DNA of 39,502 nucleotides from the NCBI GenBank assembly GCA_001275005.1, contig JWZX01003165.1, forward strand, positions 1 through 39,502, written 5' to 3'. The notes beneath the pieces were generated by a model. That model worked only from the letters and a program-made list of their open reading frames with translations. It was not told where the DNA came from and did no database searches. The stretch comes from Chrysochromulina tobinii. Lineage: Eukaryota; Haptophyta; Prymnesiales; Chrysochromulinaceae. The position numbers and the translations under genes are program-made. Positions 5,631 to 37,473 of this stretch are shown piece by piece. Within the stretch, counting starts at the first letter, position 1. The number at the start of each line of letters is the position of its first letter.

Positions 5631-7847
5631 ATGACGACTAGGCGCGGGCACGTTCCGCATGCGCAGCGCCGTCATCCGGCACCGCCTCTCGAGGCTTTTC
5701 GCCGGTCCGATGTCTTCGAGACTCTCGCATGCCATCCCGACACGCGCCCACACGTGGTCGATGCTGGGTTCCGCGAGGCGGTTTCGAAGCTGCGCACGAG
5801 TTCACACGAGGGCGGCATGCGCCTGATCCAGCACGACCCGCGGCTGGTACAGGCCATGGGCGTACTCAACGGCCATCGTGTCAGTGCGACCGAGGCGGAC
5901 GTGCGCGCCGCCGAGCGTGTCGGCGACATCAAGAAGCGCGATGCCATCCAAACGGCCGACGTCGAGGCTGCGCTGCAGTGTGCGACCGTCGCGGAGGCCA
6001 AGGCGGCCGGCAACGAGCACTTCAAGGCGGGGGCGCACAGCAAGGCGCTCGCCTGCTACGCGCGCGCGCGCGTACTCCTCGACAGCGAGGAGGCAGCCGC
6101 GCTCGCCGCTGGGGCTAGCGAGGACGACGAGGACGACAAGGTGGCGACGGGCGCCGCGCGTTCGGGCACGATGCGCGCCGTGCTTCTGAGCAACTCAGCG
6201 GCGGCGCTTCTGCGGCTTGAGCGGCCCGCGGAGGCGCTGCAGGCCGGGCTCGAGGCCCTCTCCGCCGCGCCGCCCCGCAGCAGTGAGCCCCTGAGTAAGA
6301 TCCACTACCGACTCGCACACGCGTACGAGCAGCTCCAGAGGTATGACGAGGCCATCGAGGCCATGCGTCGCTCTCTGGAGCACGCGCGTGGCGAGGCAGT
6401 CGAGGCGCCGTCTCGGGCAGTCGAGGCGCCGTCTGGGGCAGTCGAGGCGCCGTCTCGGGCTGGCGAGGCGCCGTCTCGGGCAGGCGAGGCGCCGTCTCGG
6501 GCAGTCGAGGCGCCGTCTCGGGCAGTCGAGGCGGCGCGTGGGGCTCTCCACCCATCGAGCCTCGAGTGCAGTGCAGCCTCCGACAGCGCCACCACCGCCA
6601 GCGCCACCACCGCCAGCGCCACCACCGCCAGCGCCACCACCGCCAGCGCCACCACCGCCAGCGCCACCACCACGAGCGCCTCCACCGCGACCAGTGCCAC
6701 CACCACCGCGAGCGCCACCAGTGCCCGCGCTAAGCTGCTGGCAGACGAGCTACGGCGGCTCGAGTGTGCACGCCGTGTCGCCACTGAGGCTCGGGAGGAC
6801 AAGGAGCGGCAGGCGAGGCGGGAAGCGGTGGCGCAGGCAAGGCGCGAGGCGGGCGTGCCTCTCGCGCCGTCCCGGGCGCCTGCCAACGGGGCGGAGGCGC
6901 CGTCCCGGGCGGCCGAGGGGGCGAAGGCAGCGGCCTTGGCTGAGCACGACTTCAGCCACTGGGCGCGCCGGGCGTTGGCGGCGCGACTGGGGGGCCTTCG
7001 ACACGCTCGCGCGGGCGCAACTGTCGTCGTGGATAGGATGGATGATGAGCGCTCCGAGGTGACTCTGATGACCCTTGATGACCCTTGATGACCCTTGATG
7101 ACCCTTGATGACCATTGATGACCATTGATGACCCTTGATGACCCTTGATTACGTCCGAGATGGACGATGAGCGCTCCGAGGTGACTTGCGTCTGCCCCGA
7201 CCATCGCCCCGGCCGCCAACCCCCCTTGCCTCAAGCTGGTGTGCATGGGGGGGTGCTGATTGTGGTGTGCAGGGGGGGTGGCTGATTGTGGTGTGCAGAT
7301 GGCTGACGGCTTGCTGATGATGATGGCAGGTGCATGCATCCATTCAAGAGCGTCGCGGCCGGCGCGCACTATATTACGATCTGGACCTGGTGCTGCACTG
7401 GACGGGTCACTGCGCGCTGGGGGAGCAGACGTTGGGCGAGGAGGCTGGGCACGCGCCCGAGACGACGGCACACACGATCCAGGGCGAGTTTCGGCACGCG
7501 CCCGAGACGACGGCACACACGATCCAGGGCGAGTTTCGGCTGTACAATGTCGGGCAGGACACCCAATTCAACCTTCAACCTCGCCCGCATCCAAGTGCTC
7601 ATCACGGCGCCGCCCTCCCTCCCCTTCCCCACAGGTGGGGCAGGACACCCAATTCAACCTCGGCGGCGACCCGCACACGTCCTACCTCTACACAGTGGGC
7701 GTTCCCGTACAGTTCCACAACGATGAGCGGTGCGAGCTCTGGGCGCGCCATCTCAAGTACGAGGCCAGCGAGCTCTTCGAGCTTGTGAGCGCGCTCGTCG
7801 GCCAAGTTGTAACCGATCTCGTGCGCAAGGCCGAAAGGGATTGTTGA
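5631..7847 (+). CDS. STI1/TPR protein fused to Aha1-like domain (Hsp90 co-chaperone)
   Basis: Inferred exons 5631-7058, 7330-7548 and 7635-7847 give 619 residues; an in-frame ATG at 5499 would add 44. Residues about 23-83 look like an STI1 motif (DP-rich helices ending QHDPRLVQAMGVLNG). Residues about 120-250 are TPR repeats beginning AKAAGNEHFKAGAHSKALACY. Then come a 21-bp-encoded array (EAPSRAV), an ATTAS array, and a charged helix. From about 438 to the end, DFSHWARRAL...RRGRRALYYDLDLVLHWTG...IQGEF matches the pattern of the Aha1 N-terminal domain, the activator of Hsp90 ATPase. TPR and STI1 modules also act with Hsp70/Hsp90, so a fused Hsp90 co-chaperone is the natural reading. Splice joins are phase 0 at both introns and restore the Aha1 frame. 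Exon 2 carries a perfect 45-bp in-frame duplication. Confidence 0.78.
6391..6541 (+). repeat. Coding 21-bp minisatellite
   Basis: About seven tandem units close to GTCGAGGCGCCGTCTCGGGCA encode VEAPSRA in the linker after the TPR repeats. The unit keeps the frame. Confidence 0.85.
6586..6680 (+). repeat. Coding 15-bp minisatellite (ATTAS)
   Basis: Tandem GCCACCACCGCCAGC units encode Ala-Thr-Thr-Ala-Ser, followed by degenerate copies to about 6725, in the linker before the Aha1-like domain. Confidence 0.85.
7059..7329 (+). other. Intron 1 of the STI1/TPR-Aha1 gene, carrying a 10-bp minisatellite element
   Basis: GAG|GTGACT...GGCAG|GTGCAT, phase 0, 271 bp. It contains eight 10-bp units (TTGATGACCC type, 7065-7144) ending in TTGATTACGTCCGAG. 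A 28-bp copy of the exon-end/donor junction (7037-7064) is repeated at 7159-7186 with one mismatch, so the block 7065-7158 sits between direct repeats. A further 18-bp repeat lies at 7255-7272 and 7281-7298. Confidence 0.75.
7065..7159 (+). repeat. 10-bp intronic minisatellite, copy A
   Basis: One CTGATGACCC unit, seven TTGATGACC(C/A) units, then TTGATTACGTCCGAG. The same organisation and the same terminal sequence recur at 33711-33815 in an intron of Brr2. Confidence 0.95.
7450..7539 (+). repeat. Perfect 45-bp tandem duplication in coding sequence
   Basis: Copies at 7450-7494 and 7495-7539 are identical and duplicate HAPETTAHTIQGEFR in the Aha1-like domain without changing frame. Perfect identity suggests a recent event, or an assembly artefact. 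Confidence 0.9.
7549..7634 (+). other. Intron 2 of the STI1/TPR-Aha1 gene, flanked by a 26-bp direct repeat
   Basis: AAT|GTCGGG...CACAG|GTGGGG, phase 0, 86 bp. The first 26 bases of the intron (7549-7574) equal the first 26 bases of exon 3 (7635-7660) with one mismatch. Both copies include GGGCAGGACACCCAATTCAA. The frame before and after supports the join. Confidence 0.8.
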
Positions 7848-9112
7848 AAGGGCTCCAAAGGGTTTCTACGCTGTGCAGTGGTAGACGAATCGTATTGATC
7901 GGATAGGACGCAGCGCTTGCCGCGTAGAATGTACTGTTTAGAGAATAGGTTTCGTCATTAGGGCTACCGGTACGCCACTGAGTTCAAAATCAGGTGGTGG
8001 GGATAGTGTGTGAATCCAGAAAGAATACCCTCCCCTACCCCTTTGGATCAACCACTGAGTTCAAAATCAGGTGGTGGGCAGGTGGGGATAGTGTGTGAAT
8101 CCAGAAAGAATACCCTCCCCTACCCCTTTGGATCAACCACTGAGTTCAAAATCAGGTGGTGGGGATAGTGTGTGACTCCAGAAAGAATACCCTCCCCTAC
8201 CCCTTTGGATCAACCACTGAGTTCAAAATCAGGTGGTGGGGATAGTGTGTGAATCCAGAAAGAATACCTTAGAATACCCTCCCCTACCCCTTTGGATCAA
8301 CCACTGAGTTCAAAATCAGGTGGTGGGGATAGTGTGTGAATCCAGAAAGAATACCCTCCCCTACCCCTTTGGGTCAAGTCGCAATCTCCGTAAGGTATTA
8401 AATCTCCGTAAGATATAGTATAGAGGATATAGAGAATGATATAGAGTTGTCCTGTGCCCCCATATAGCCGAGCGGCCGAGAGCGATGCGACGAGACCAAG
8501 AGAGATGTGACCGTCCGGTCCGGAGTCAGATAACCGAACGTGTGAGTTCAGTGAGTTGTGAGCGTCTCGCCGCGCGTGACTCGCCGCGCCTCTTCGCTCT
8601 CGCGCGTCTATTAATAAAAGCGACCGGTGCCGCGGACTACGCACACTCTGCTGCACACGCAAAGCGATTCGTGCACATGCGACGTGCCCTGCACCGCTGG
8701 TTCTCGACCTTGTACGTATGGGATATGCCACGGTGCCCGTGCCGCCTGCGTGGGGGCGGAGGCCTCCTCTCCCAGCCGGCTCGAGATCCGGAGACGAGGC
8801 CGAGCGCCGTGGGTGGAATCGAGCTTCGCGTCCACCACATCAAGATGCTTCATTGGTGACTTAAAAGATGCCTCGAGGATCAACATGGCGGTCGGCATGA
8901 TCCCAGCCATTCACGCATGATCCCAGCCCGGACTGAGGAGACGCAAGTGTGAACACCCACCCTCCCAAATCTCTCCAAATCTCCCCGAGCCGCTCAAAGC
9001 AGCGCTGGCGCATCTTCGGCTGCAATCTCCTCCCAATCTCCCTGCCATTTGCAAGATTCCCACATGCCCTCACGCCCGCATGCCCGCTGTTCACAGGCCG
9101 CATGCCCGCTGT
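7848..9112. other. 1.27-kb intergenic region between convergent genes
   Basis: Between the 3' ends of the co-chaperone and the C1 peptidase. It holds the 77-bp satellite (7975-8376), a less GC-rich stretch at 8377-8460 with two copies of AATCTCCGTAAG, a doubled CATGATCCCAGCC near 8897-8930, and a 22-bp tandem duplication that reaches the peptidase stop codon. Open frames at 8485-8859 and 8611-8910 have no recognisable domain. I do not call a gene. Confidence 0.5.
7975..8376. repeat. Five-copy 77-bp satellite
   Basis: Units start CCACTGAGTTCAAAATCAGG at 7975, 8052, 8137, 8214 and 8301. Three are 76-77 bp; unit 2 has an 8-bp insert and unit 4 a 10-bp insert. Otherwise they are nearly identical. 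Each unit starts with a potential stem (CCAC-TGA paired with TCA-GGTGG across an AT-rich loop) and ends with a pyrimidine-rich CCCTCCCCTACCCC. Confidence 0.95.
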
Positions 9113-9121
9113 TCACAGGCC
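9078..9121. repeat. 22-bp tandem duplication at the peptidase stop codon
   Basis: Two copies of a 22-bp unit containing GCATGCCCGCTGTTCACAGG (9078-9099 and 9100-9121). The peptidase stop (9113-9115) lies in the second copy, so the duplicate forms the start of the 3' UTR. Confidence 0.85.
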
Positions 9122-11144
9122 GTTCGGGTCGTAGCGCGACGGCGCGTACTCGGGTACCGTCTTGAGCGGTTTCGTCGACTCCTCGATGAGAGTGTAATCA
9201 TACCCGTGCTCGCGGCGCGATGCGTATGAGCGCTCAGTCCACTCGATGTCGAACCTGTGAACGAGCGATGGGGCGCTGTGGTGAGCACACGCATGCGAGG
9301 CAGCTCAGGGCCGGGCGAACGGTCCAACTCGATGCCGTACGAAGTGGCGATGACGTCCCCGAAGCGCGATTGGAGCGTCTCGTACGTCTCGTACGGGATG
9401 AAGTTGAAGCCGCACACCTCCGGGTCGTTGATGCCCACGCGCTTGATCTCCTCGTCAGTCGGACCGAAGATCATCGGAAGGTCATCAAAGGGCATCGGCG
9501 GGTAGCACTTTGAGGTGGCCTCCGTGCCCTGAACGCGCAGGAAGCATGCGACGTAGAGCCCGGCCGAGCCGAAGTCGGTGATGTTCTGGAAGTAGTAGCC
9601 CTCGCCAGGCTCACACGCGCCCGTCGGCAGGGAGGAGCCATCGTCGACACACTTGAGGTGGAAGACCTTGCGTGTGCTCTCGGCGCTCATGAGCGTCATT
9701 GGGGAGGTGCACTCGGCCACACTGCCACACGTCATCCAGGAGCGCGGCGAGTGCGGGTTTGGGCACACGTACGACTCATCGAGCTCGCCCACGTCTTGCA
9801 GGAAGTACGCTGCGGAGTGCGAGCCGCGAGCGCGCATGCCATGCGAGCGCCCCATGCCATCCTCCCAAGTGTTGCGCACGATCCAGCCTCCGTCAAAGCC
9901 CCGAACGGTGCGGAAGTGGTCATTGTAGCCGACGATGTTGATGGCGTGGCCGCCAATCTGCACTAGCGGCTCATTCGGCTGGTGAAACCACTCGCCTGCG
10001 ACACACACACACGCGCGCGCGAGCGCACGCCCGGTGGAGAGCTGTCAGAGGTCTGGAGACGGAGGGGCGGGCGGATGCCGAGAGGACGCGCCCAGTACGG
10101 CGCCTACGCCACGAGCAGCACGCTGAGTGTAGGCGCCGTACTGGGCACGCTGAGCAGCACTGCCGGGCGATGACGCTGACGAAGTTGGCGAGGCTGAGCA
10201 GCACTGCCGGGCGACGCACCCTTCATGCTCACCATCGGGCGCTCGATGGTGATGCAGCACGTGATGCCCTCGTAGACGCGCTCGTGCGGGCACGCCTCGC
10301 AAACCTCCTTCTCCTTGTCGCAGCCCCGACGGGCGTCGCAAGGCACGTGAAAGTGCGAGCTGACCTCGCCGAGACCCAGCGAGAGCGGGTAGCCGCGCTC
10401 GACGAGCGTCCGCTTGATGTCGTCACGCGCAAAGTGCGTCTTCCACGAATTCACTTTAAACTCGAGTGGATTCTTGCTACGCGCCTCGGCGAGGCCATCG
10501 CATTTCCAGTCATCGTCGAGGCCGGCGACCGGTGTGTAGGGGCACACCGTCACGGGCAGCGGGCCGATCTTGCCGAGGTCCGAGATCTGGCTCAGGGGGG
10601 CAAAGATCTTCTCATCGCCACCGTCGCGGCCTTCGGTCGTATTGCCCCACGAGATCATAGTGGCTCCGCCCTCCACCGTGACCTCCACGGCAGGGCAATA
10701 GCTCATCGGGTACTTCTTGCACGTCTCCATGTACGCGATGCCGAGCGCCTGGCGGCTCAGCCTCATGTACTTTGCGGGGTCAAACCAGCCGCGCTCGACT
10801 CCATAGCGACGGTAAGAGTCTTCGAGGATGCCCGAGCCCGAGAAGAGATAGCAGTCGCCACGAAGCAACTGATGGGACGACGGAGTCACGCCACTGACGA
10901 GGAATCGCGGCGGCGTCGAAGTGTGGACGCTCGGGCAAGACGGCGCGCTCGCCATCGACACCGCGCTGGGCTGCATGAAGTAGGCGAGCGTGCTCAGGAG
11001 CCCGCCGCCGATTACCATACCTCCGATGACCAAGGTGCCATTTCGTACCATACCTCCGAGTGGCGTGACCAGGTTGGTCGGCTTGGCGCGCTCATCGTCG
11101 CCGAGAAGAGATGTCTTTCCATTCTCCATAGATGCGTACTGCAT
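9113..11144 (-). CDS. Membrane-anchored papain-like (C1 family) cysteine peptidase
   Basis: Inferred exons 11144-10220, 9995-9329 and 9254-9113 total 1,734 bp, 577 residues. The ATG at 11144 is the first in frame; the frame stays open to 11282 without an ATG. Residues about 36-57 (TLVIGGMVIGGGLLSTLAYF) form a signal anchor, so the enzyme is probably type II with a lumenal or extracellular catalytic domain. Papain landmarks are in order: Gln92 six residues before Cys98 in HQLLRGDCYLFSGSG; His325 in GGHAINIVGYN; Asn350 in WIVRNTWEDG. The usual GSCWAF box is replaced by GDCYLF, so it is a divergent member. A Cys-containing C-terminal extension of about 200 residues follows. The last exon replaces an arginine-rich out-of-frame tail with FDIEWTERSYASRREHGYDY, supporting the second intron. 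Substrate unknown. Confidence 0.78.
9255..9328 (-). other. Intron 2 of the C1 peptidase
   Basis: Minus-strand GA|GTTGGA...TCACAG|GTTCGAC, phase 2, 74 bp. The donor is weak but is the only upstream GT in the right phase that I found, and the join gives YGIEFDIEW. The intron start (GTTGGAC) and next exon start (GTTCGAC) differ at one of seven bases, possibly a decayed form of the duplication seen elsewhere. Confidence 0.55.
10090..10146. repeat. 18-bp perfect inverted repeat (hairpin) in an intron
   Basis: Arms GCCCAGTACGGCGCCTAC (10090-10107) and its exact reverse complement (10129-10146) are separated by 21 bp. It can form a strong stem-loop in the pre-mRNA of the C1 peptidase. Confidence 0.9.
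10149..10214. repeat. 22-bp direct repeat, 44-bp period
   Basis: Identical 22-bp copies containing GAGCAGCACTGCCGGGCGA at 10149-10170 and 10193-10214. The second ends five bases from the donor of the peptidase's first intron. Confidence 0.9.
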
Positions 11145-11687
11145 CGTGTCGGCGCAGGCGCTTGGAAGGAAGGTGACGTCGGGGGTCTCGCCGTCCGCGC
11201 CGATTCCGCTCGGGGGTCTCGTTACCGGTACGTACCGGTATCGGCAAATTCCGCACCAAAGCAATGACGACGCGTCGACCACCCTGTGACTGACCGACCA
11301 CCTTTCGCTGCCTCACTCACCGCGGAGCGCATGGCGCAAACGCAAATACGAGTAATGTCCTACAGTATCAGGCTACAGACTGCATCGGCGCCAGGCGCCG
11401 CGGTCTAAACTTAGTTCATGTCAGCCAGAGGACAACAACGCCGTGAATAAAGGAAGCCTTACTGAATGTGCTCCGGAAGCCAGCTGTGGTGGAAGGGAGT
11501 CGATGGAGACCATGGAGGGGGGTCCAAATTTTTGATGGACTTGATTGTTATTGATGTTATTGATCACGTTATCTTCGCGGAATTTTCTAGTGAACATATC
11601 CTGCGACGTCCACATTGCATCACCACGGGACCGAGTCTTGCCGTTCACAACCCCTACTCTAGGTCCTTCACACCTCATGTTCTAGAA
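11145..11687. promoter_or_regulatory. Divergent intergenic region with an 18-bp palindrome
   Basis: 543 bp between the divergent starts of the C1 peptidase (11144) and the methyltransferase-hydroxylase (11688), so both promoters are probably here. It contains the perfect palindrome at 11223-11240. The part from 11466 to 11687 is open in frame with the plus-strand gene but is markedly AT-richer, so I treat it as 5' UTR or promoter, not coding. Confidence 0.45.
11223..11240. repeat. 18-bp perfect palindrome TACCGGTACGTACCGGTA
   Basis: Perfectly self-complementary, 79 bp upstream of the peptidase start on the minus strand. It contains two copies of the 8-bp core TACCGGTA that is also the centre of the palindrome at 37708-37727. 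It could be a site for a dimeric DNA-binding protein. Confidence 0.7.
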
Positions 11688-13591
11688 ATGGAGACCTTCC
11701 TGCCTTCACCCATTGACGACGACGGCGACGCTACAGGTGACCGAGAGTGGGACAGCAGTTACCTCCTGCTTGCAGCTCTTGTCAATGAGGATGCGTGTGC
11801 ACGCCTCCTGCCTCCCGGCGTCTCGCTTCCTCCTGAGGAGGTGCTAGAGCTGGGCGCCGGAACCGGCGCCATGGCCTGCTCACTTCTTGCGTCACGCTGG
11901 TCTGGAGTACGGTACGTGGCCACGGACATGGCTTGCCGTATCGCCAACATAGAAGCCAACGCGGCCAAGAGCAAGTGCACCAGCTTGTACGCACAGCCAC
12001 TCATCTGGGGCAGCACGCCACCAGCACCAATGAGTGCGGGCGATGCCACCTACCTTGTTTTGATGTCCGACTTGATCTACTTTCACGGCAAGCACCTGCT
12101 CGAGCCCGACACACTCGAGCCGCTCGCGCAGACGCTCTGCATGGCGCTCTCACAGCGCAGGCGCTCCTGTGCCCTCTTCACGTTCAGGGAGCGCGACCCC
12201 GAGCGTGAGGCTCATTTTCGAGCCTTGTGCGTCGCACGTGGCTTGGCGGTCACAGAGCCGCTCGACGCTGACTATCTGGCGGGGCTCGTACCCGCCGCGA
12301 CGCACTCGGATGTTGAATCATCTGGGCCATTGAGGCTATGGCGCCTGACGCCTCCACAAGACAGCACTACACACGTGATTTCAGGCGAGGCGCCCACTCC
12401 CCCGGCGCCCGCAGCCACAGTGCCGCAGCATGCACTCTCTTCTGCGCAGCCGTCTGTACTCATACCGCAGCTCTCGATTACAGCACTCTCGGCCGGCTCT
12501 GTTCGCGCGCATCTCCGGATCAAGATCGGCCCAGATCTGCCGAGATTGGAGCCAGATCTGCCCAGATCGGAGCCAGATCTGCCGAAATCGGAGCCAGATC
12601 TACCCAGATCGGAGCCAGATCTGCCCAGATGGCGCCAGGGTGCCCTCGTAGCGAGCGAGCGAGAGCCTCGGCTGGTGCTCTACCCCAATTTCCTCTCTGC
12701 GTCGGAGACAGCGCACCTGCTCGACTTAAGTCGCTGGGGCGCGCTCGAGGCAGAGGCCGCTGCGATCTTCACGCCCGCGGCGACGCCTGCTGTCTCTTGG
12801 GACAGCGGTCGCGCCATTAACGCCGCGAGCAGCGGGCGCACGATCACCATCCATTTGCCCTCGCCCAGTGACGATCCTATCATCCAGGCCATCGAGGAGC
12901 GCTGTGCGGCAGCGACAGGCATCCCAATACACGCCGATGAGGAGCCTATAGGGGTGCGCCTAACGAGCCCCTCAACGGCCACCACTGATATATACATGAT
13001 TGCCCCTAATCATGGATGCCCCCTGATTGCCTCGCTCATCAGGTGCGCCATACGAGTCCCTCAACGGCCGACGAGTGCGGCGAGCGCTACTGCACCGCGC
13101 TTCACATCGACACGAACCAAGGCGGCCACTTCCGCGCCGCGACGGTGCTGCTGTACCTGCATGACATCGAGCACGGCGGCGAGACCCGTTTCCCGCTCGT
13201 CGGCGCGGCGGAGGGCTCGGAGATTCGACTTGCGGCCGAGCGCCTTGCGGATCTCGGCATCACGGCGTTCAGCCCGAGTGAAGACATCGAGTGGCCACCC
13301 CTCCACTTGCGAAAGCCGTTACTGGATGCCGCGGAGGCGGAGGGCGTCGGGCTGTGCATCCAGCCCAAGGCGGGGCTCGCCGCCGTCTTCTGGACGCATA
13401 CGCCCGATGGCCTGGACAAGTACAGCTGGCACGCGGGCGCGCGCGTGCCGCCTGAGGCCACCGATGGCAAGCTCATCGCCCAAAAGTTCAAGTCGCTTCC
13501 AGTCCAGTGGCGGCCAACACGGAAAGCAGATGCCGTCAGGCTGCCCGTTGAGTTGAGCCCGCCGTTAGGGTTAGGGTTAGGCGTAGCGTGA
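11688..13591 (+). CDS. Methyltransferase fused to 2OG-Fe(II)/prolyl 4-hydroxylase domain
   Basis: Inferred exons 11688-12953 and 13043-13591, 604 residues. An upstream in-frame ATG at 11466 would add 74 residues from AT-rich sequence, so I prefer 11688. The N-terminal half has a class I SAM-binding fold of the METTL21-like lysine methyltransferase type: VLELGAGTGAMACSLL (about 52-67, motif I), YVATDM, then VLMSDLIYF (about 123-131). A PDLPRSE heptapeptide array (about 281-315) links to the C-terminal half, which has the prolyl 4-hydroxylase pattern: LHIDTNQGGHFRAATVLLYL with the HxD iron ligands at about 441-443, a distal His in YSWHAGARV (about 550), and a following Lys. Both active sites look intact. 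A dual protein-modifying enzyme is inferred; the substrates are unknown. The C-terminus ends in a telomere-like repeat. Confidence 0.78.
12529..12630 (+). repeat. Coding 21-bp minisatellite (PDLPRSE)
   Basis: About five units close to CCAGATCTGCCCAGATCGGA encode the heptapeptide linker between the methyltransferase and hydroxylase domains. The frame is kept. Confidence 0.85.
12954..13042 (+). other. Intron of the methyltransferase-hydroxylase gene, flanked by a 27-bp direct repeat
   Basis: GGG|GTGCGCC...CTCATCAG|GTGCGCC, phase 0, 89 bp. The first 27 bases of the intron (12954-12980) match the first 27 of the next exon (13043-13069) at 24 positions. The 3' end GATTGCCTCGCTCATCAG closely resembles intron ends in Brr2. 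Confidence 0.8.
13563..13580 (+). repeat. Interstitial telomere-like motif
   Basis: Three contiguous TTAGGG-type units inside the last codons of the methyltransferase-hydroxylase gene (encoding LGLGLG). Too short to be a telomere; possibly a scar of repair or telomere-RNA insertion, or chance. Confidence 0.7.
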
Positions 13592-13790
13592 CCCAAACGA
13601 TGAACTCTTCGCGGCACTTTTCACTACAGGGAATTATTTGCTACACATTTTGGGAGCGGGCCACCCCATGCTCCCAGCGGCACGCACAGAACTGTGACAT
13701 TTGCGAGACGCCATGGCGTGGGCATGGTGCACCGACAGTAGTGTCGACTCGGGCGGCTGCGCGCGCGCCCTGCGCCCTCGTGCTCATCGT
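13592..13790. other. Convergent intergenic spacer
   Basis: 199 bp between the 3' ends of the methyltransferase-hydroxylase (plus) and dynein (minus). Both 3' UTRs and poly(A) sites must fit here; I see no clear AATAAA. Confidence 0.4.
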
Positions 13791-25914: not shown

Positions 25915-26304
25915 GGGCGCAGCACAAAGAGGTACCTTTCGCCAACGGAGACGAGAGTAGAGCGCCGTTGTGGTCATATCGAAACGTCCGATGCCTGCCT
26001 TATCTTTCACTGAGATGCTTTCACTTGGTAAGGGCCGGGGCTTCTGAACAAGACATGATAGCAACAACTCACATGACCCGCCATGGTCTCACGACGCACG
26101 AAATCCGGAACAACACAGGCGAGGTACAAAGCGGAACAGCACTCGTTAACGCACTTGCGGCTATGTGGTGCCCTCTCTGGCACACAACACGACAGCTCCC
26201 ATCTGACGCCTGGTATGTATATACTCCATCTCAAACCGATCGCAAGTGCGAGTTGACAAGATGCACAAGAAGCTCGATCTGCCCACGATCTGTCATTGGT
26301 ATCA
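25915..26304. other. Spacer between dynein start and DNase II 3' end
   Basis: 390 bp that must include the dynein promoter and the DNase II 3' UTR. The uncorrected DNase II frame stays open through it to 26007, but with composition unlike a conserved domain. No gene called. Confidence 0.45.
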
Positions 26305-27872
26305 TCAGTCGCAGCAGCACGAGGCAATCGGTTCGCAGTCGCTCGTCCGCACAGGGCACTTGTGCACGTCGCCCCCGGGCGCCGCGCAGCATTCGCCTCC
26401 CATTTGGATACAGTTGGCCTGCGCGAGGGCACGGATGCCCGGCAGCGACTTCGGGATGTCGCACACGCCGTTTTCCCACACGCAGCCGTGCACTGCGCCG
26501 TACTGTTTGCAGCTGCCCTCGCTCGTGTACGACTCGCCCGAGCCGGAGCAGCACGTCTGTCCCGGGCTGCACGTCGCGTCCGCATGGTAGCAGCAGTTGC
26601 CGGGCGTCGGGCCGGGCTTGGGGGGGGCGGGGGGGCCCGGGGCAGCGACTTCGGGATGTCGCACACGCCGTTTTCCCACACGCAGCCGTGCACTGCGCCA
26701 TACTGTTTGCAGCTGCCCTCGCTCGTGTACGACTCGCCCGAGCCGGAGCAGCACGTCTGTCCCGGGCTGCACGTCGCGTCCGCATGGTAGCAGCAGTTGC
26801 CGGGCGTCGGGCCGGGCTTGGGGGGGGGCGGCGCGGGCGCCCCGCACGGCCCCACCGCCATTGCTGCCGCGTGCATGAGGCCGACAAGGCCCGGCTGCTG
26901 CATGCAAATCGCGAGCCCCGCGCGGCCGAACTGCGACTCGACGTGGTTGTTGTCGAGCGCGCAGAACCAGTCGTCGCTCTCCGTTTTCGCGACCGCCCAC
27001 TTCGAGTGGTCCACCTGGGTGGCATGCACGTCAGGCGGTTCTTCGCCTGGAAGCTGAATGGTCAAGATGTCCGTCACGTTGTAGCCCTCACCAGGCGGTA
27101 CGCAGTAGCCGCCAATGACGCCGCCAGTATTGAGCCACGACTGCGACCACAGGTCCGTCTTGAGCGCGGGCGCGGTGATCAAGTCGAGCATGTCGATCTC
27201 CGCCGCGCTCGCCTTCCCCTGCAGGTGAAGCGTCGCCCACCCGACGTCGATCGTCGTGACTGTCGTGCCCGGTAGTTTCTGCTCCGCGGCGACGGCGTTA
27301 ATGTTGGGCCAGCTCGTGATGTCCAGGCGCTTGTCGTACACCTGCGGGTACGCGTACTGCATCACCAGGGCGATCTCGTTGAGCATCTTGGGCGTGAGCG
27401 ACATGCAGAACGCGTGCTGCCCGTAATACGTCTGGCCGTCGCCGTACTGGTAGCCTGCCTTGACGTACTCGGGGAAGTCGGGGACGCTGTGCTGGACGAA
27501 GAAGGCCGAGGTCTCGTCGAAGGCGAAGAAGCCCTTGGAGTGCCCGTGGGATGAGCTCGATCCCCCGCCGTCGGGCAACTGGTCGTTGTAGAAGACGTAG
27601 TTGGTGACCGAGCCATCGTAGACGCCGGCGAGCTGCAGCCCAAACAGCGACGACGTCTGGAAGACGGTGTGCGCGCCGACGGTCCATGAAGTGGGCGAGG
27701 CAGAGGTGCTGTACACGTACGTGGAGCCGGTGCAGTCGCCGATGCATGTTTTATGGCTCGCGTCCGTCCAGCGCGGATGCTTGTAGAGAAACCACCAGTC
27801 GACGGCTTCGCCGGCTTCGTTGACGCAGCCGAGCTTGGCGGAAATGGCGAGGACGGGCAGAAGCAGTGCCAT
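26305..27872 (-). CDS. DNase II family protein with cysteine-rich tail
   Basis: Acid endonuclease of lysosome-like compartments or a secreted nuclease, by family. The ATG at 27872 gives a signal peptide (MALLLPVLAISAKLG); the frame is open to an ATG at 28055, which would bury the hydrophobic segment. The DNase II signature is clear: NEAGEAVDWWFLYKHP near the N-terminus, YVFYNDQLPD, GHSKGFFAFDE with the first catalytic His (about 111), VQHSVPDFP (about 127-134), and VDHSKWAVA with the second HxK motif (about 288-292). After a Pro-rich linker comes a Cys-rich module (CCYHADATCSPGQTCCSGSG, from about 360), encoded twice because of a 200-bp tandem duplication. Since 200 is not a multiple of three, the second module is out of frame at the G-runs near 26620-26642. 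With a small correction there the protein ends at 26305 in CCCD. Without it, the frame runs to 26007 as junk. Confidence 0.82.
26441..26827 (-). repeat. Near-identical 200-bp tandem duplication
   Basis: Sequence from 26441 to 26627 recurs at 26641-26827 with one difference that I found (26500 G versus 26700 A). Each copy encodes one Cys-rich module of the DNase II tail. G-runs of 8-9 and 7 bases lie at the junction, where the frame breaks. Confidence 0.92.
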
Positions 27873-28388
27873 CCGTGGCGGCAGCAGCAGCAATGGCAGG
27901 AACACCCACAGGAAGCGCCCTCGAGGGAGCGAACGGAGCGAGGCACAGAGAGGAGGCCTTCGATGCCTCGAGAATGAGATCCGAAGCAGACCGGAGTCGC
28001 CGCTGTAACACTCTGTGAACGTTGAGCCGTGAATGCCGACGGCTTTTGGCTCCAATGCTGGAAGTGACCCGAGAGAGCGAGTGCAATTGTACTAAGTACT
28101 CCTTGCAATCTCCTTGTCAGTATTTAGAGTGCTGACCGAAGTGTGCGGAGCCGTCTTTTACTTTTTTTTTGAAACGTGTTGCGAGCGAAGGTGGAGGGAC
28201 AGCGACGAAACTGGACAATGTTTGACTGTTCACTGTTGAGAGCGCGAACGGAATAGAGCGCAGCGGCGGCGCTCCCTCCGGGACCGCGACGAAACTGACG
28301 GACTTCCGTAGTGACGTTTCGCGGTTCACGGGTCGCTCTTCTGTGCTCGCACTTCCTGTCTCGCGAAATTCGCTTCGGAGTGACGACC
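27873..28388. promoter_or_regulatory. Divergent intergenic region
   Basis: 516 bp between the divergent starts of the DNase II gene and the DUF3431-glycosyltransferase gene. A T-run (about 28162-28170) is the only notable simple sequence. No TATA box is evident. Confidence 0.4.
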
Positions 28389-30150: not shown

Positions 30151-30352
30151 AAGTTCGCGGGCTCTGGGGTGTTAACAGCCGAGCGAGCGAGTACCTTAGT
30201 TCTTGTTTGCTATTGACTGTTAACAGCCTTCTTTCACACCGCGTTCTCTTGCTTCTGTGAACACGCACGACCACGCGCTTCAGCTCCACGCGCTGGAGAC
30301 TCACCTTGACTTCACGCGCAAGCGGTACTCACCTTGACTTCACCGCAAACGA
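30151..30352 (+). promoter_or_regulatory. Spacer and probable 5' UTR of Brr2
   Basis: 202 bp. It has two GTTAACAGCC motifs (about 30171 and 30217) and, just before the Brr2 ATG, a doubled ACTCACCTTGACTTCAC (about 30299 and 30328). Confidence 0.45.
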
Positions 30353-33300
30353 ATGGCGGACAAGGTGCAGCGCCTCCGCCAGTATGAGTACCGCGCCAAC
30401 TCCAACCTCGTGCTCACCTCGGAGACGGCGCGGGTGCGCAACGACGAGCCGTCGGGCGAGCCCACGTCGCTCAAGGAGCACCTCGAGGGCACGCGCTTCG
30501 GCGACCGCGTGTACCACTCGAAGCCGGACCTCGAGGGTGCGGGCAAGAAGCGACGCTCAGAGAAGGGCGTGATCGAAGTCAAGCGCTCAAAAAAGGACAC
30601 GGAGACGGTGCTTGGCCTCACCGATGACATCGACTCCTACCGGCCGCGCTCAAAGGAGACGCGCAGCGCGTACGAGGACCTGCTCTCGACGATCTCGCAG
30701 CAGCTGGGCGACCAGCCGCACGACATCCTGCGCGGCGCGGCCGACGAGGTGCTCGCGTGCCTCAAGAACGACTCGCTCACCGACCCAGAGCGCAAGGTCG
30801 AGGTGGAGAAGCTGATCAACCACCTGGGCTCCGAAGCCTTCGCATCACTCGTGCAGGTGGGCAAGCGCATCACCGACTACATGCAGTACGAGGGCATGGC
30901 GGGGAACGAGAAGCTCGACGACGAGCTCGGCGTTGCCGTCGTCTTCGACGGCGGCGATGACGACGACGACCCGTCGGCGAGGCGCGACGATGCCGACGAT
31001 CTGGTCGACGTTGATGTCTCCGATGACGATGCGGATGACGTGGGCGTCGATGCGGCGGCGCCTCGGCAGCTGGCGCGCGGCGACGAGGTGGCGGGCGCCG
31101 ACGGCGACGGCGACGAGCTGCCCATCGGCTCCATCGACGCCTACTGGCTGCAGCGTGAGTGCGGCAAGTACTTTGGCGATCCGTTGGTGGCGCAGCGCAC
31201 AGCCGTGGACGTTCTGACGACGTTGATGCTTCCGGACGAGCGTGAGTGTGAGAACCGGCTGGTACGTGGCTGGTGGTGGATGGCCTTGATGATGATGATG
31301 GCCTCGGAGTGCCTCTGACGGCCTCGTCGATGGCCTCGTTGATGGCCTCGTTGATGGCCTCGCTGATGGCTTCGTTGATGGCGTGCCTCCTCAGGTGGTG
31401 CTGCTCGACTACGACAAGTTCGAGTTCATCCGGCTGCTGCTCAAGCACCGCTGGAAGATTGGGTGCTGCACACGCCTCGCGCAAGCGCAGTCGGAGGCCG
31501 AGCGCGCGCGCCTGCTCGCCGAGTTCGACACACACGAGGCGACAGCCGCGGTCGTCCACGAGCTTGCGAGCGCGCGCACGCAGACCGAGGAGATATTCAC
31601 CCAGACGAAGCAGCTCGAGGCGCGTGTGCGCAAGGAGACCGCCGAGCTGTCGCGGATGCGCGCCCAGGCCGAGGGTGCCGGCGCCGCCGCCGCAGATCTC
31701 CTCGCAGCGATGCCCGAGCCCACCAAGGCGCGCGTCGGCACGACGGTGCTCGACCTGGACGCGCTCGCCTTCGAACAGGGAGGCCACCTGATGGCGAATA
31801 AAAAGTGCGCGCTGCCGGCGGGCTCGGTGCGCACCCAGCGCAAGGGGTACGAGGAGGTTCACATCCCCGCGCTCAAGCCGAAACCGTTCTTGGAGGGGGA
31901 GGCACTCGTGCCGATCGATTCGCTTCCCGAGTGGGCGCAGCCCGCGTTCGCGGGCATGCGCACGCTCAACCGGGTGCAGTCGCGCGTGTGCAAGTGCGCG
32001 CTGTACTCGGCCGAGAACATGCTCATCTGCGCGCCCACCGGCGCGGGCAAGACGAACGTCGCGATGCTCACCATGCTCCATGAGATTGGCATGCATCGCT
32101 CGCCGACGACGGGCGCCGTGCTGCTCGACGCGTTCAAGATCGTGTACGTGGCGCCCATGAAGGCCCTCGTGCAGGAGATGGTGACCAATTTTGGCAAGCG
32201 GCTCGAGGCGTTCGGGATCACGGTGCGCGAGCTCACCGGAGATCAGCAGCTGACGAAGCAGCAGATCGCCGAGACGCAGCTGATCATCACGACGCCCGAG
32301 AAGTGGGACATCATCACACGAAAGAGCGGCGACCGTACATACACGCAGCTGGTGCGCCTGATCATCATCGACGAAATCCACCTGCTCCACGACCACCGCG
32401 GGCCGGTGCTCGAGTCGATCGTCGCGCGCACGATCCGGCAGGTGGAGACGACGCAGGAGATGACGCGCGTCATCGGCCTCTCCGCCACCCTCCCAAATTA
32501 CGAGGATGTCGCGGCTTTCCTGCGCGTCGAGCCGAGCAAAGGGCTCTTCCACTTCGACAACTCGTACCGCCCCGTGCCGCTTCAGCAGCAGTATATTGGG
32601 ATCACCGAGAAGAAGGCCATCCGCCGATTCCAGCTCATGAACGAGATTGTGTACGTTGAGTGCCTCTGATGACCGCTGAGTGTGCCACTGATGACCGCTG
32701 AGTGTGCCACTCATGACCGCTGAGGAGCTCTGATTGCGCCCATCATCATGTTCAGGTACGAAAAGTGCCACGCCCAGGCCGGCAAGAACCAGGTGCTCGT
32801 CTTCGTGCACTCACGCAAGGAGTGCGCCAAGACAGCGAAGGCCATCCGCGATACCGCGCTGCAGCACGACACGCTCGTCGACTTTCTGCGCGAAGACTCC
32901 GCCTCGCGCGAGATCTTGCAGACCGAAGCCGAAGCGACCAAGAATCGCGAGCTGGCCGACCTGCTGCCGTATGGCTTCGCGATCCACCACGCGGGCATGA
33001 CGCGCGTCGATCGGACGTTGGTCGAAGACCTCTTTGCCGATGGGCACATCCAGGTGCTCGTCTCGGCGCCCTGAGTGCTCGTCTCGGCGCCCTGAGTGCT
33101 CGTCTCGGCGCCTTGAGTGCTCGTCTCGGCGCCCTGAGTGCTCGTCTCGGCGCCCTGAGTGCCCTCCCTCATCTGAAGGCCGAAACCGATGGCCTCCCTC
33201 ATCAGGTGCTCGTCTCGACGGCCACGCTCGCATGGGGAGTCAACCTGCCCGCGCACACGGTGATCATCAAGGGGACTCAGGTGTACGATCCCGAAAAAGG

Positions 33301-36300
33301 CAAGTGGACGGAGCTCTCGATGATGGACGTGATGCAGATGCTCGGGCGGGCGGGCCGGCCCGGCTTCATGGGACGTGCCGACGAGCACGGCGAGGGGATC
33401 ATCCTGACGCAGCACTCGGAGCTCCAGTACTACCTGTCGCTCCTCAATCAGCAGCTGCCCATCGAGTCGCAGTACGTGACGAAACTTGCCGACAATCTCA
33501 ACGCCGAGGTGGTGCTCGGCACGGTGCAGACGGCCGCCGAGGGCGTCGCGTGGCTTGGGTATACGTACCTCTTCGTGCGCATGCTGCGCAACCCTTCGCT
33601 CTACGGCGCGTCCGAAGCGGAGCGGGAGAGCGATCCGTTACTCGAGCAGCGGCGCATCGACCTCATCCACTCGGCCGCGACGCTGCTCGACAAGTGCGGG
33701 CTGCTGCGCTCTGATGGCCCTTGATGACCCTTGATGACCCTTGATGACCCTTGATGACCCTTGATGACCCTTGATGACCCTTGATGACCCTTGATGACCC
33801 TTGATTACGTCCGAGTGCCCCTCTCATCAGGTGCGGGCTGCTGCGCTACGAGCGCAAGAGCGGCCAGCTGCAGCCAACGGACCTGGGGCGCGTGGCGGCG
33901 TACTACTACGTGCCCCACAAGACGATCTCGGTGTACAATGAGTATCTCAAGCCGACACTGAGCGACATTGAGCTGCTCCGCCTCTTCGCGCTCTCGACCG
34001 ACTTTGCGAACATCACCGTGCGCGAGGAGGAGAAGCAGGAGCTTGCGCGCCTGATCGAGCGCGTGCCTGTACCGGTCAAAGAGCACGTGGACGAGCCCAC
34101 TGCGAAGACGAACATCCTTCTGCAGGCGTACATCTCGCAGCTCAAGCTCGAGGGCTTCTCCCTCCTCTCCGACATGGTGTACGTGACGCAGTCGGCTGCG
34201 CGCCTGATGCGCTGCCTGCACGAGATAGTGCTCAAGCGCGGATGGGCCTCCCTTGCGGATCGCGTGCTCAGCTTCTGCAAGATGATCGATCGGCGCATGT
34301 GGCTCGCGCAGACGCCGCTTCGCCAATTCAAGGGCATCCCGGAGGACATCATCAGGAAGATTGAGAAGAAAGACTTTCCGTGGGAGCGATTCTATGATCT
34401 CCAGCCGCAGGAGATCGGCGAGCTCGTGCGCTTTCCTAAAATGGGCAAGATGATCCACCGGTTCGTCCATCAGTTCCCGCGCCTCGAGCTGCAGGCGCAC
34501 GTGCAGCCCATCACGCGCACCGTGCTCCGTGTCGAGCTCACCCTCACCCCCGACTTCCAATTCGATCCCAAGGTCCACGGCCATGCAGAGGCCTTCCACG
34601 TGCTCGTGGAGGACGTCGATCAAGAGCACATCCTGCACACGGAGACCTTTTTATTAAAGGCCAAGTTTGCTGAGGACGATCACACTCTCTCGTTCACAGT
34701 TCCGATTGCCGACCCGCTGCCGCCTCAGTACTACATTCGGGTCGTCTCCGATAGGTGGCTTGGGTCCGAGACCACCTTGCCGGTCTCCTTCCGCCAGCTC
34801 ATCCTACCCGATAAGTTCCCGCCACACACGGAGCTGCTCGACCTGCAGCCGCTGCCCGTCTCGGCGCTCGAGAAGCAGTCGAGATTGTACGCCAACGCCT
34901 TCACGCACTTCAACCCGATCCAGACGCAGACCTTCTCAACGCTCTTCCACACCGACGAGAATTGCCTCGTCGGCGCACCGAGCGGCTCGGGCAAGACCGT
35001 GTGCGCCGAGTTCGCCATCCTGCACATGCTCATGACGAAACCCGATGGACGGTGCGTCTACCTCGCCCCCCTCGCCGCCATCGCGGAGGAGAGGCATGCG
35101 GACTGGACGAAGCGCTTCGGGGCGCTCGGCTGCACAGTCGAGATGCTCACGGGCGAGACGGCGATGGACCTCAAGCTGCTCGAGAAGGCCACGATCCTGA
35201 TCGCGACCCCGCAGCAATGGGACCATCTCTCGCGCCGCTGGAAGCAGCGCAAGAACGTGCAGACGGTCGCGCTGCTGCTGTGCGACGAGCTCCACCTCAT
35301 CGGGGGCGAGCCCGGGCCCGTGCTCGAGATTGTGATCTCGCGCATGCGCTACGTTTCGTCACAGACCGAGTCGGGGCTGCGCATCGTGGCGCTCGCGAGC
35401 TCCCTCGCGAGCGCCAAGGACCTCGGAGAGTGGCTCGGCTGCCCTTCAGCGGCGATCTTCAACTTCCATTCGAATGTGCGCCCAGTGCCCCTAGAGCTCC
35501 ACATCCACGGCCTCGACATCGCCCACGTGCCCTCGCGCCTGCTGGCCATGGGCAAGCCCGCGTACTATGCGATCGTCAACCACGCCCAGGAGCGCCCCGT
35601 GCTGCTCTTTGTACCCACCGCCAAGCAGACGCAGCTCACCGCCATCGACCTGCTCACCTACGCAACGGCCGAGGGCAAGCCGCGACGCTTCCTGCATGCC
35701 GAGCCGCAAGACATGGCGCCCTTCGTGGCCAAGATCAAGGACGCGGCGCTCTCTCACACGCTCGGGTACGGCCTTGGCTTCTTACACGAGGGTCTCTCTC
35801 ACGACGAGATCGCGGCTGTGAAAGCACTCTACGCTACCGGGGCGGTCCAGGTGCTCGTGGTCGTCTACACCCTTTGCTGGTCGCTCTCGCTGCCGGCGCA
35901 CCTCACGATCATCATGGACACTCAGCACTTCGACGGCGCAGAGCACCGGTACGTGGACTACCCCATCACCTCCATTCTGCAGATGATGGGGCGCGCGTGC
36001 CGGCCGTTAGTGGACGACGTGGGCCGCTGCGTGCTGCTCTGCCACGCGTCCAAGAAAGCGTTCTATCGCAAGTTCTTGTACGAGCCTCTGCCGGTCGAGT
36101 CGCACCTCGATCACTACCTCGCGAACCACTTGTGCGCCGAGACGGTCACCAAGACGATCGAGTCGAAGCAGGACGCGGTCGATTACCTCACGTGGACTTT
36201 CATGTACCGACGACTCACGCAGAATCCCAATTACTACAATCTTCAAGGGACGAGTCACCGCCACCTGTCCGACCACCTGTCCGAGCTCGTCGAGACGACG

Positions 36301-37473
36301 CTGAGCGATCTCGAGCAAGCTCGCTGCATCTCGATCGAGGAGGGCATGGAGGTGACGCCGCTCAACCTGGGCATGATCGCGAGCTACTATTACATCAACT
36401 ACACGACTGTCGAGCTCTTCGCTTCGTCGCTGACGGCGACCACCAAGCTGCGAGGTCTGCTCGAGATTGTGGCAAGCGCCTCCGAGTTTGAGCTGCTGCC
36501 TGTCCGATTGCGCGAGGACGACACGCTCGCGGCCCTCGCCGCGCACTGCCCGCACAAGCTCGAGAGCCCGCGCTTCTCGGACCCACACACCAAGGTGAAC
36601 GTGCTGCTCCAGTGCCATTTTGGGCGTCGCGATCTGCCGCCGGAGCTCACGGCTGACCTGCACGGCACGCTCGAGAAGGTGACGAAACTGCTCCAGGCGA
36701 TCGTGGACGTGCTTTCGTCCTCGGGGTGGCTCGCGCCCGCCCTTGCCGCCATGGAGCTCTGCCAGATGTGCGTCCAAGCGCTCTGGGATCGCGACCCCGT
36801 CCTCTTGCAGCTGCCGCACGTGACGCGCGAGATCGCGATGCGGGCCAAGGCGGCGGGCATCGAGACGGTCTTCGACCTGATGGAGATGGACGATGATGAG
36901 CGCGTCGAGCTGCTGGCCATGCCGCCCGCGCACCTCGCCGACGTGGCGCGCGTGTGCAACCGGTACCCGTCTGTCGAGCTCGCCTTCGAGGTCGAGGACA
37001 CTGAGGACGTCTCCGCAGGCGACACAGTCACCGTGCTCATCTCTCTCGAGCGCGAGGCTGAGGAGCAGCAGGGCGTGCCTGCAGTGCATGCGCCGCACTA
37101 CCCTAAGGCGCGCTGATTGCCTGTGATTGCACTGGGTTTGCCTGTGATTGCCTGTGATCACCTGTGATTGCCTGTGATTGCACACGTGATGACCTCTGAT
37201 GGCCTCCATCATCAGGTCAAGGAGGAGGGCTGGTGGCTCGTCGTGGGCAACACAAAGGCCAACACGCTGCTGTGCATCAAGCGGATCTCGCTGCAGCTCA
37301 AGGCCAAGGTGAAGCTCGAGTTCGTGGCGCCCGAGGCGGGCGAGTATGTGTATACGCTCTACCTGATGAGCGACTCATACCTGGGCTGCGACCAGGAGTA
37401 CGAGCTGCCTCTCCAGGTGGCCGAGGCCAAGGATGCGGACGACGACGAGGACGAGGATGACGAGGACGCCTGA
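30353..37473 (+). CDS. BRR2: Brr2/SNRNP200, U5 snRNP RNA helicase
   Basis: Ski2-like helicase that unwinds U4/U6 during spliceosome activation. Exons 30353-31261, 31395-32650, 32756-33053, 33206-33693, 33831-37107 and 37216-37473 sum to 6,486 bp, 2,161 residues, the usual full length. The start is fixed by the conserved N-terminus ([12 protein letters not shown] follows within 20 residues of MADK). Order: N-terminal region with a PWI-like part and acidic linker (to about 290); first cassette with APTGAGKT (about 515), DEIH (about 628), [10 protein letters not shown] and MLGRAGRP; Sec63 domain; second cassette with GAPSGSGKT (about 1365) and DELH (about 1467); second Sec63 domain; acidic C-terminus. 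The first cassette has all catalytic motifs. The second is diverged (ASSL in motif III), as in the family, where it is regulatory. All six exons join in frame with conserved sequence on both sides. Four of its five introns carry repeats of the family described in the findings. Confidence 0.96.
31262..31394 (+). other. Brr2 intron 1
   Basis: CTG|GTACGT...CCTCAG|GTGGTG, phase 0, 133 bp, joining ECENRLV to [10 protein letters not shown]. Contains six 12-bp units of the GATGGCCTCGTT type (about 31316-31387). An upstream GTGAGT at 31242 is a better donor but would delete conserved residues ECENRL. Confidence 0.85.
32651..32755 (+). other. Brr2 intron 2, flanked by a short direct repeat
   Basis: ATTGT|GTACGT...TGTTCAG|GTACGA, phase 2, 105 bp, joining MNEIV to [12 protein letters not shown]. 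The intron starts GTACGTTGAGTGCC and exon 3 starts GTACGAAAAGTGCC (11 of 14). The body is two and a half 22-bp units starting TGATGACCGCTGAGTG (32667, 32689, 32711). Confidence 0.9.
33054..33205 (+). other. Brr2 intron 3, built of 21-bp units copied from exon 4
   Basis: CAG|GTGCTC...CTCATCAG|GTGCTC, phase 0, 152 bp, joining ADGHIQ to [11 protein letters not shown]. Five 21-bp units (33054, 33075, 33096, 33117, 33138) each begin with GTGCTCGTCTCG, the first 12 bases of exon 4, and end with an in-frame TGA. The intron ends GATGGCCTCCCTCATCAG. Confidence 0.92.
33694..33830 (+). other. Brr2 intron 4, flanked by a 17-bp perfect repeat and carrying the 10-bp minisatellite
   Basis: GACAA|GTGCGG...TCATCAG|GTGCGG, phase 2, 137 bp, joining LLDK to [11 protein letters not shown]. 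The first 17 bases of the intron, GTGCGGGCTGCTGCGCT (33694-33710), equal the first 17 of exon 5 (33831-33847). Confidence 0.93.
33711..33815 (+). repeat. 10-bp intronic minisatellite, copy B
   Basis: One CTGATGGCCC unit, eight perfect TTGATGACCC units, then TTGATTACGTCCGAG. Same architecture and ends as 7065-7159 in a different gene. Confidence 0.95.
37108..37215 (+). other. Brr2 intron 5, probable GC-AG intron
   Basis: AAG|GCGCGC...CATCATCAG|GTCAAG, phase 0, 108 bp. The exon frame hits a stop at 37114-37116. The GC donor gives [14 protein letters not shown], which keeps exact spacing to the conserved EEGWW segment of Brr2. The nearest upstream GT (at GCA|GTGCAT) would remove ten residues. 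The body holds at least five CCTGTGATTG-type 10-bp units. Confidence 0.75.

Follow-up and report, generated by a model that had tools for sequence, protein, structure and literature searches.

Introner-like insertions with long, variable target duplications as a probable source of introns in Chrysochromulina tobinii

Introns and repeats of the window

The window (the whole stretch of 39,502 nt that was analysed) is one entire contig of the Chrysochromulina tobinii genome, which was searched as 53.15 Mb in 2,253 contigs. Its forward strand carries a gene for the splicing helicase Brr2/SNRNP200 (30353..37473) with five introns, at 31262-31394, 32651-32755, 33054-33205, 33694-33830 and 37108-37215. 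The spliced protein is 74% identical to its Prymnesium parvum counterpart and 73% identical to the Emiliania huxleyi protein, each over 99% of the length; these are its best two named relatives, the others among the top eight being unnamed. At all five junctions the residues brought together by splicing are direct neighbours in the 8 homologous proteins compared and rejoin a conserved protein (for example PK^VKEEGWW at the last intron), with the exception of a 3-residue insertion at intron 3 in the E. huxleyi model; at junction 5 some homologues show small gaps a few residues upstream. The prediction that these are real introns is well supported by this agreement. A Brr2 relative on contig C2002 was considered for comparison and found too diverged (71-72% over the two longest pieces).

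A sequence-only reading of the window had claimed that five of its introns begin with a copy of the start of the following exon. We scored this match in the donor register (+1/-2) against a null of 79 GT-initial exon starts from other loci, and four of the five copies stood out, with none of the 79 null sequences scoring as well. Two of these introns lie outside Brr2, on the forward strand. In the intron at 7549..7634, copy 1 (7549-7574) is followed by an insert (7575-7634) and by copy 2, which is the start of the next exon (7635-7660; 25/26 match, score 23). The intron at 12954..13042 has the same arrangement (copy 1 12954-12980, insert 12981-13042, copy 2 13043-13069; 24/27, score 18); its host is a methyltransferase-16 / 2OG-Fe(II) oxygenase-like gene whose frame is open once spliced and in which the Pfam domain Methyltransf_16 scores over the cut-off and 2OG-FeII_Oxy_3 under it. 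The other two are Brr2 introns. At 33054..33205 a 21-nt unit, GTGCTCGTCTCGGCGCCCTGA, is repeated about 5 times (33054-33162), and the first 12 nt of this unit are the start of the next exon (about 14/15, score 12); at 33694..33830 copy 1 (33694-33710) and copy 2 (33831-33847) match at 17/17 positions (score 17) and enclose a TGATGACCCT array (33712-33805).

The fifth claimed copy did not survive the comparison. In the Brr2 intron at 32651..32755, whose junction is conserved and which holds a 22-nt array (32660-32724), the 11/14 match scores 5, a value reached by 17 of the 79 null sequences and thus not above chance. The same donor-register test detected no exon-start copy in the intron at 31262..31394 (12-nt array, 31316-31382) and no target duplication in the GC-AG intron at 37108..37215 (TGATTGCCTG array, 37114-37181). 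The description of the intron bodies as tandem repeats fits 32651, 33054 and 33694 but not 7549 and 12954.

The sequence-only reading had placed the beginning of the affected range at 7059, where a 28-nt direct repeat (27/28; 7037-7064 and 7159-7186) is present on the forward strand, but in another layout: it spans an exon end, an AG and a GT. The repeat encloses a TGATGACCCT array (7066-7149), and we read the segment 7037..7186 as an insertion at the 5' edge of a probable older intron ending at 7329. Going by the frame, read by eye, the exons would join as ...DDERSE^VHASIQ. A scan of the window for GT-initial repeats, comparing AG before copy 2 only with AG before copy 1 only, gave 8 vs 5 on the forward and 1 vs 3 on the reverse strand, counts too small to be of use. 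A comparison with Rfam was negative both for the window, at gathering thresholds, and for six class-2 loci (see below), at E 0.5.

Two cassette classes and their flanking repeats

When the 7549 region was used as a query, 41 further stretches of the genome matched it, and this search led to the recognition of two types of cassette. The insert of intron 7549 belongs to class 2: its core, GCATCCAAGTGCTCATCACGGCGC (at about 7587-7610), is one base off the class-2 15-mer that we counted, and its 3' end is CCCCTTCCCCACAG. That 15-mer, GCATGCAAGTGCTCA, has 1,084 exact matches in the genome, as compared to 0 for a reversed-pattern control; as a rule CACCACGGCGC comes next, and then pyrimidines and CACAG. 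Class 1 is marked by the 14-mer 3' end GCCTCNCTCATCAG, with 1,657 matches (reversed-pattern control, 1), of which 1,115 have a GT directly after it (GCCTCNCTCATCAGGT; control, 0). This motif is exact in introns 12954, which ends in GATTGCCTCGCTCATCAG, and 33054, and the 3' end of intron 33694, GCCCCTCTCATCAG, is one base off it. Class-1 inserts often hold decamer arrays such as CTGATGACCT, and tandem arrays are chiefly a feature of one cassette type.

In both classes the cassette is about 40 nt long and consists of a branch-point-like CTCAC or CTGAT, a pyrimidine tract and an AG; we presume the former two to be branch points from their likeness to the known consensus. By eye, class-1 inserts often start near CTGATGA and end in TCATCAG, which is a possible short inverted repeat, and no inverted ends were noticed in class 2. 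CTGATGA was also considered as a hammerhead-like motif, and no support for this turned up. The class-1 motif was absent from the viral contigs searched, a set that may omit close records.

The direct repeats around these cassettes were assessed in a sample spread over 44 contigs for class 2 (60 places, most neighbouring matches being passed over) and 39 contigs for class 1 (40 places), drawn from the first 100 listed matches per motif and hence from low-numbered contigs. Places were picked blind to repeats, except for one class-1 place (C172) that was known to carry them and was excluded; of the 44 class-1 regions prepared, C249, C254 and C256 were also dropped, these three to save space. Since L114/L131 and L071/L113 are each one gene on redundant contigs, 60 slightly exceeds the number of independent class-2 places. 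Going by the motif counts and these inspected places, several similar introns occur at unrelated positions, as in introners.

Direct repeats of the kind left by target-site duplication (local score at least 15) flanked the core in 47/60 class-2 places, as compared to 9 of 1,172 shuffled pairs. In class 1 they were found in 19/40 places against 26 of 781 shuffled pairs, the higher control value being attributable to the arrays. Some of the places that showed no repeat at score 15 (13/60 in class 2 and 21/40 in class 1) may owe this to age, gaps or nested copies. The sequence-only reading had proposed comparing intron starts with the starts of the following exons against shuffled pairs. In the sampled class-2 places, with the acceptor set by rule beforehand, 37 of 59 scored at least 11 (one place had no acceptor by rule) as compared to 4 of 1,160 shuffled pairs, a large excess outside the window as well.

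Forty class-2 repeats could be aligned without gaps, a set that includes other layouts and a redundant pair and leaves aside gapped alignments such as one of 68 nt at L068. These repeats measure 17-48 nt; 28 are at least 95% identical, 12 of them perfect, and 12 fall below 95%. L061, L105 and L112 are examples of places with a perfect duplication. This spread suggests a process that is recent and has been running for some time.

Three further tests were set aside. A GT-initial repeat scan over regions L009-L032, of the same kind as that of the window, gave 45 vs 17 and was swamped by decamer arrays, four of the regions being non-random. A search by stricter criteria, covering 200 kb taken from 20 random contigs, yielded 47 repeat pairs, 24 of them with AG/GY at matching places on at least one strand under a loose rule; being control-free, it yields no rate. 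A reading-frame test on 34 short joined class-2 flanks did not discriminate, since the frame was open in 33 for the sense strand, in 32 for the antisense strand and in 30 when left unspliced.

The main layout of these introns consists of a target copy starting with GT or GC, a variable filler, the cassette of about 40 nt, and a second target copy that forms the start of the next exon; on its left side the duplication begins with the donor, a GT or sometimes a GC, and the last two bases of the insert are AG. We treated 34 class-2 introns as having this layout. The other 13 of the 47 repeat-bearing places were left out: 12 were removed manually, as tandem copies, as cases with another layout, as a redundant contig (one place) or, for L119, as a member of the truncated subfamily, and L070 had no acceptor by the rule. 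The automatic acceptor rule misplaces at least two acceptors (L109 and L117), and the statistics on the 34 introns include these errors. Total length is 82 +/- 10 nt and the duplication 29 +/- 9 nt, and in 31/34 the acceptor lies 37-48 nt from the start of the core. The donor is GT in 26, GC in 4 and another dinucleotide in 4; the two bases past the acceptor are GT in 28, GC in 3 and other in 3; and the last base of exon 1 is a G in 28 introns, 13 of them with AG. In main-layout class-2 introns in general, a 5' stretch of roughly 12-46 nt comes from the target and is specific to the locus. For the most part, the filler ahead of the cassette measures 0-28 nt and the insert about 25-70 nt. Across the 34 introns, longer duplications tend to go with shorter fillers (Spearman -0.46, p 0.006), which we read as selection for a minimal donor-to-branch-point spacing that duplication and filler meet together.

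Other layouts were also seen. The duplication spans AG/GC or AG/GT at L059, L111, L127, window positions 7037-7186, L012 near 7644 and L022 at 2903; in such cases the target can be the source of both splice sites. One subfamily has progressively shorter 5' ends (L097, L127/L111, L059, L120, L119). At L115 and L123, cores of about 25 nt lie between repeats with no obvious intron and look truncated at the 3' side too.

Empty paralogous sites and the origin of the insertions

Paralogous genes with and without insertions were found for two loci. A search with L022 retrieved a paralogue on contig C1788 (L135), whose matches overlap by 25 and 13 bases where L022 has extra sequence. L022 carries a GC-AG intron of 100 nt (2528-2627) with a 27-nt duplication matching at 26/27 positions from the donor, and in the alignment C1788 has a single target copy and no insert at this site. 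Spliced L022 reads IVAAEAGTLTPPFMQLIAA and C1788, translated by eye, reads IVAAETVPTLPPFMQVIAA, at equal length. A second L022 insertion lies where an older intron common to both paralogues has its 3' end, and duplicates CCGTTGGGCAGGTAC, which is single in C1788. The L022 junctions are covered by Pfam methyltransferase domains. The second locus, L012, has a paralogue of about 76% identity on contig C1370 (L136), and carries two consecutive insertions at one AG/GTAC, both absent from C1370; the C1370 frame TWLTSYDGGSGLTKP runs through, and the L012 frame, read by eye, is TWLARYDGGSGLTAP. Across the two gene pairs, four insertions therefore have an insert-free homologous site with a single target copy. 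Precise deletion between the repeats could, in principle, also leave such an empty paralogue.

C1370 in turn has an apparent class-2-like intron. By eye, its repeat measures about 50 nt and its insert, which starts close to the presumed branch point, about 29 nt; as the reading frame stays open through this intron, it could also be coding. The redundant contigs C101 and C235 were of no use as a presence/absence test, with only a 72-bp difference in array length in the part compared, and L007 had, besides itself, no gene-length match among the 40 candidates scored.

These results very probably reflect introner-like insertions, in which a cassette and a long, variable target duplication together supply a new intron. 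The observed basis consists of the cassette families, the flanking repeats, the empty paralogue sites and the junctions that fit homologous proteins at the tested sites. A short cassette resembling the 3' part of an intron would insert into a gene beside a GT or GC, duplicating about 15-50 bp of the target. The 5' splice site would then lie in target copy 1, which would also serve as the spacer that separates donor from branch point, whereas copy 2 would become the next exon; removal of everything from the first base of copy 1 through the AG of the cassette would restore the gene; in the variants that span AG/GT, the target could provide both splice sites. The scheme put forward by the sequence-only reading, with the GT from the duplicated target and the AG from the insert, is thus supported by the cassettes, the excess of flanking repeats over shuffled pairs and the empty paralogues. 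Splicing at each individual site, the derivation of the insert from an intron and the enzymology are what we infer from these data.

As to the route, we lean tentatively towards RNA-templated, target-primed insertion. Target-primed reverse transcription fits the nearly constant 3' end, the 5'-truncation series and the variable duplication length, and reverse-transcriptase domains are present in the genome (26 matches, 22 over the cut-off; presence only). A possible but somewhat doubtful competitor is the templated repair of staggered double-strand breaks, in which fill-in of ends of 15-50 nt would produce the duplication and a piece of intron, as DNA or cDNA, would be captured as filler; selection would retain the insertions that splice, and common introns would be the commonest donors. 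Such repair would account for the variable duplication length and variable 5' filler as well as for the small apparent insert in C1370, and, in the available part of PMC3443670, short direct repeats flank 43% of the introns gained in Daphnia. The cores apparently cut on both sides at L115 and L123 are not predicted by simple target-primed reverse transcription and fit templated break repair better. On the other hand, more than 1,000 exact matches to one 15-mer suggest amplification from few sources, and the narrow range of core-to-acceptor distances in 31/34 main-layout introns also speaks against break repair.

Excised introns might themselves act as retroelements, although we regard this as unlikely. 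The 3' tail of an intron RNA, reaching from about the branch point to the final AG, would be joined to DNA directly ahead of a GT and reverse-transcribed, and a distant cut of the second strand would yield a 15-50-bp duplication from which the new intron takes its 5' half. Being products of the spliceosome, two unrelated families of introns would in this way use a common route of insertion. If true, similar gains could sit in other genomes, unseen by screens that demand similarity at both ends.

Less probable still is a non-autonomous, MITE-like DNA transposon whose transposase sets the duplication. The available text of PMC9860276 reports target duplications, inverted ends or both in 59.2% of 130 surveyed families, and the possible CTGATGA/TCATCAG inverted repeat of class 1 would agree with such an element; but class 2 showed no inverted ends by eye, and the duplications vary (17-48 nt) as compared to 3-9 bp in the earlier cut-and-paste-like families, which argues against a standard cut-and-paste transposase.

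The alternative named in the sequence-only reading, a partial tandem duplication of exon sequence containing AGGT with no mobile element, is highly improbable: the mechanism is known (PMC3443670, in the part available) and AG/GT-spanning repeats exist (window 7037-7186, L022 at 2903, L012 near 7644), but plain exon duplication does not explain introns in which a cassette common to many places sits between the copies and in which, in the main layout, the acceptor belongs to the insert. Equally remote is an artefact of misassembled repeats or unspliced segments, since despite the fragmented assembly, its redundant contigs and splicing read from sequence alone, C101 and C235 agree over about 2 kb save 2 mismatches and the array difference, L005 and L006 are 99.8% identical over 3 kb, and the frames and protein junctions fit.

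Relation to known intron-generating systems

The origin of introns has long been an open question. In the present case the new intron appears to owe its donor, and as much as about half of its sequence, to the target, so that a cassette with no donor of its own could still make an intron. Non-LTR retrotransposons and SINEs also produce variable-length target duplications and 5'-truncated copies, and the insertions described here resemble them in the duplications and, for one subfamily, in a series of shortened 5' ends, although some cores look truncated at the 3' side as well; they differ in that the inserts showed no recognised tail and are mostly only about 25-70 nt long.

Among documented intron gains, the break-repair introns of Daphnia are similar in being flanked by direct repeats, but in the accessible part of that report (PMC3443670) the repeats are short, whereas here a high-copy cassette is present. 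Introns from tandem genomic duplication, described in the same source, likewise take their splice sites from a duplicated AGGT, but have no inserted cassette and only duplicated exon between the splice sites; in our introns a shared cassette lies between the copies. Rogers and Bendich (PMC11782384) examined 213 introns by hand and report that every one had direct repeats of 4-30 bp nearby, and the available portion of their text describes no such element family. The introners of Amoebophrya (PMC7789003, as far as its accessible text goes) are repeated introns with direct repeats at exon/intron borders, but these repeats are 3-5 nt and are accompanied by inverted repeats of 8-20 nt and often by non-canonical splice sites, while here the repeats are long and the splice sites mostly GT/GC-AG. 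Among the papers listed by a literature search with thin coverage of subscription journals, none was recognisable as a report of long, variable duplications at introners.

The closest parallel is with the introners of Micromonas, Aureococcus, dinoflagellates and Chrysochromulina itself (Gozashti et al. 2022, PMC9860276). In the available part of that study, introners are recognised by similarity that must set in, at both splice sites, no more than 10 bases into the intron or 5 into the exon, low-complexity families are removed, and target-site duplications are reported for 49 of 130 families, at 3-9 bp for earlier families and with 4- and 8-bp examples in a figure that includes a Chrysochromulina family with a 4-bp duplication. 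The likeness to introners asserted by the sequence-only reading thus holds in function, but not by this definition: main-layout introns, whose 5' part is target sequence, lack the similarity near both splice sites and should therefore tend to escape the published screen. Comparing each intron start with the start of the following exon is independent of similarity between introns, and should find gains that similarity screens miss. As in those systems, high-copy sequences here make introns with a target duplication, and either splice site can be co-opted from the target; the duplications, however, are 17-48 nt as compared to the 3-9 bp given there, in line with the earlier claim that they are longer, and it is the target rather than the element that appears to supply the 5' part of the intron.

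Apparent length variation of a 12-nt array

Two regions on redundant contigs of the same assembly, L133 (contig C101) and L134 (contig C235), are nearly identical when aligned, with 2 mismatches over ~2 kb, and differ in length by a 72-bp block of a 12-nt array, corresponding to about six repeat units. Judging from the sequences of these two contigs, the length of this array seems to be variable within the sampled organism or population.

Unusual arrangements of the insertion units

At locus L028, on the minus strand, the unit formed by the target copy and the cassette is doubled in tandem (~8420-8565 and 8932-9063), so that there are two AG acceptors, each followed by an identical exon start. 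At two other loci, L100 and L115, class-2 cores (the core motif of the class-2 cassette) apparently lie within an open reading frame and no intron is evident, with the frames assigned by eye; on this sequence reading, the insertion may have been retained there as coding sequence.

Additional features of the window

A domain search of the predicted spliced protein encoded at ~5990-7845 of the window retrieved TPR repeats and an Aha1_N domain. Downstream of this TPR/Aha1-like gene, a 77-bp tandem repeat is present in about five copies (7975-8377). At 26441-26827 of the window, a 200-bp unit occurs in about two tandem copies with 99% matches. Visual examination also revealed an inverted duplication at 10090-10160 (GCCCAGTACGGCGCCTAC / GTAGGCGCCGTACTGGGC), which is probably located inside or beside a minus-strand gene.

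The class-2 motif in a viral-collection contig

Searching the viral-collection contigs for the class-2 motif retrieved a single match, at the end of a 4.5-kb contig (L137:4340-4554). This segment includes a class-2 core and a CACAG-GT end; upstream of these, a decamer array is flanked by the two copies of a long direct repeat. Since the remainder of L137 is phage-like in appearance, as judged by eye, it is probably a chimeric contig containing alga DNA from another sample. The match hints that the elements are not confined to the C. tobinii genome.
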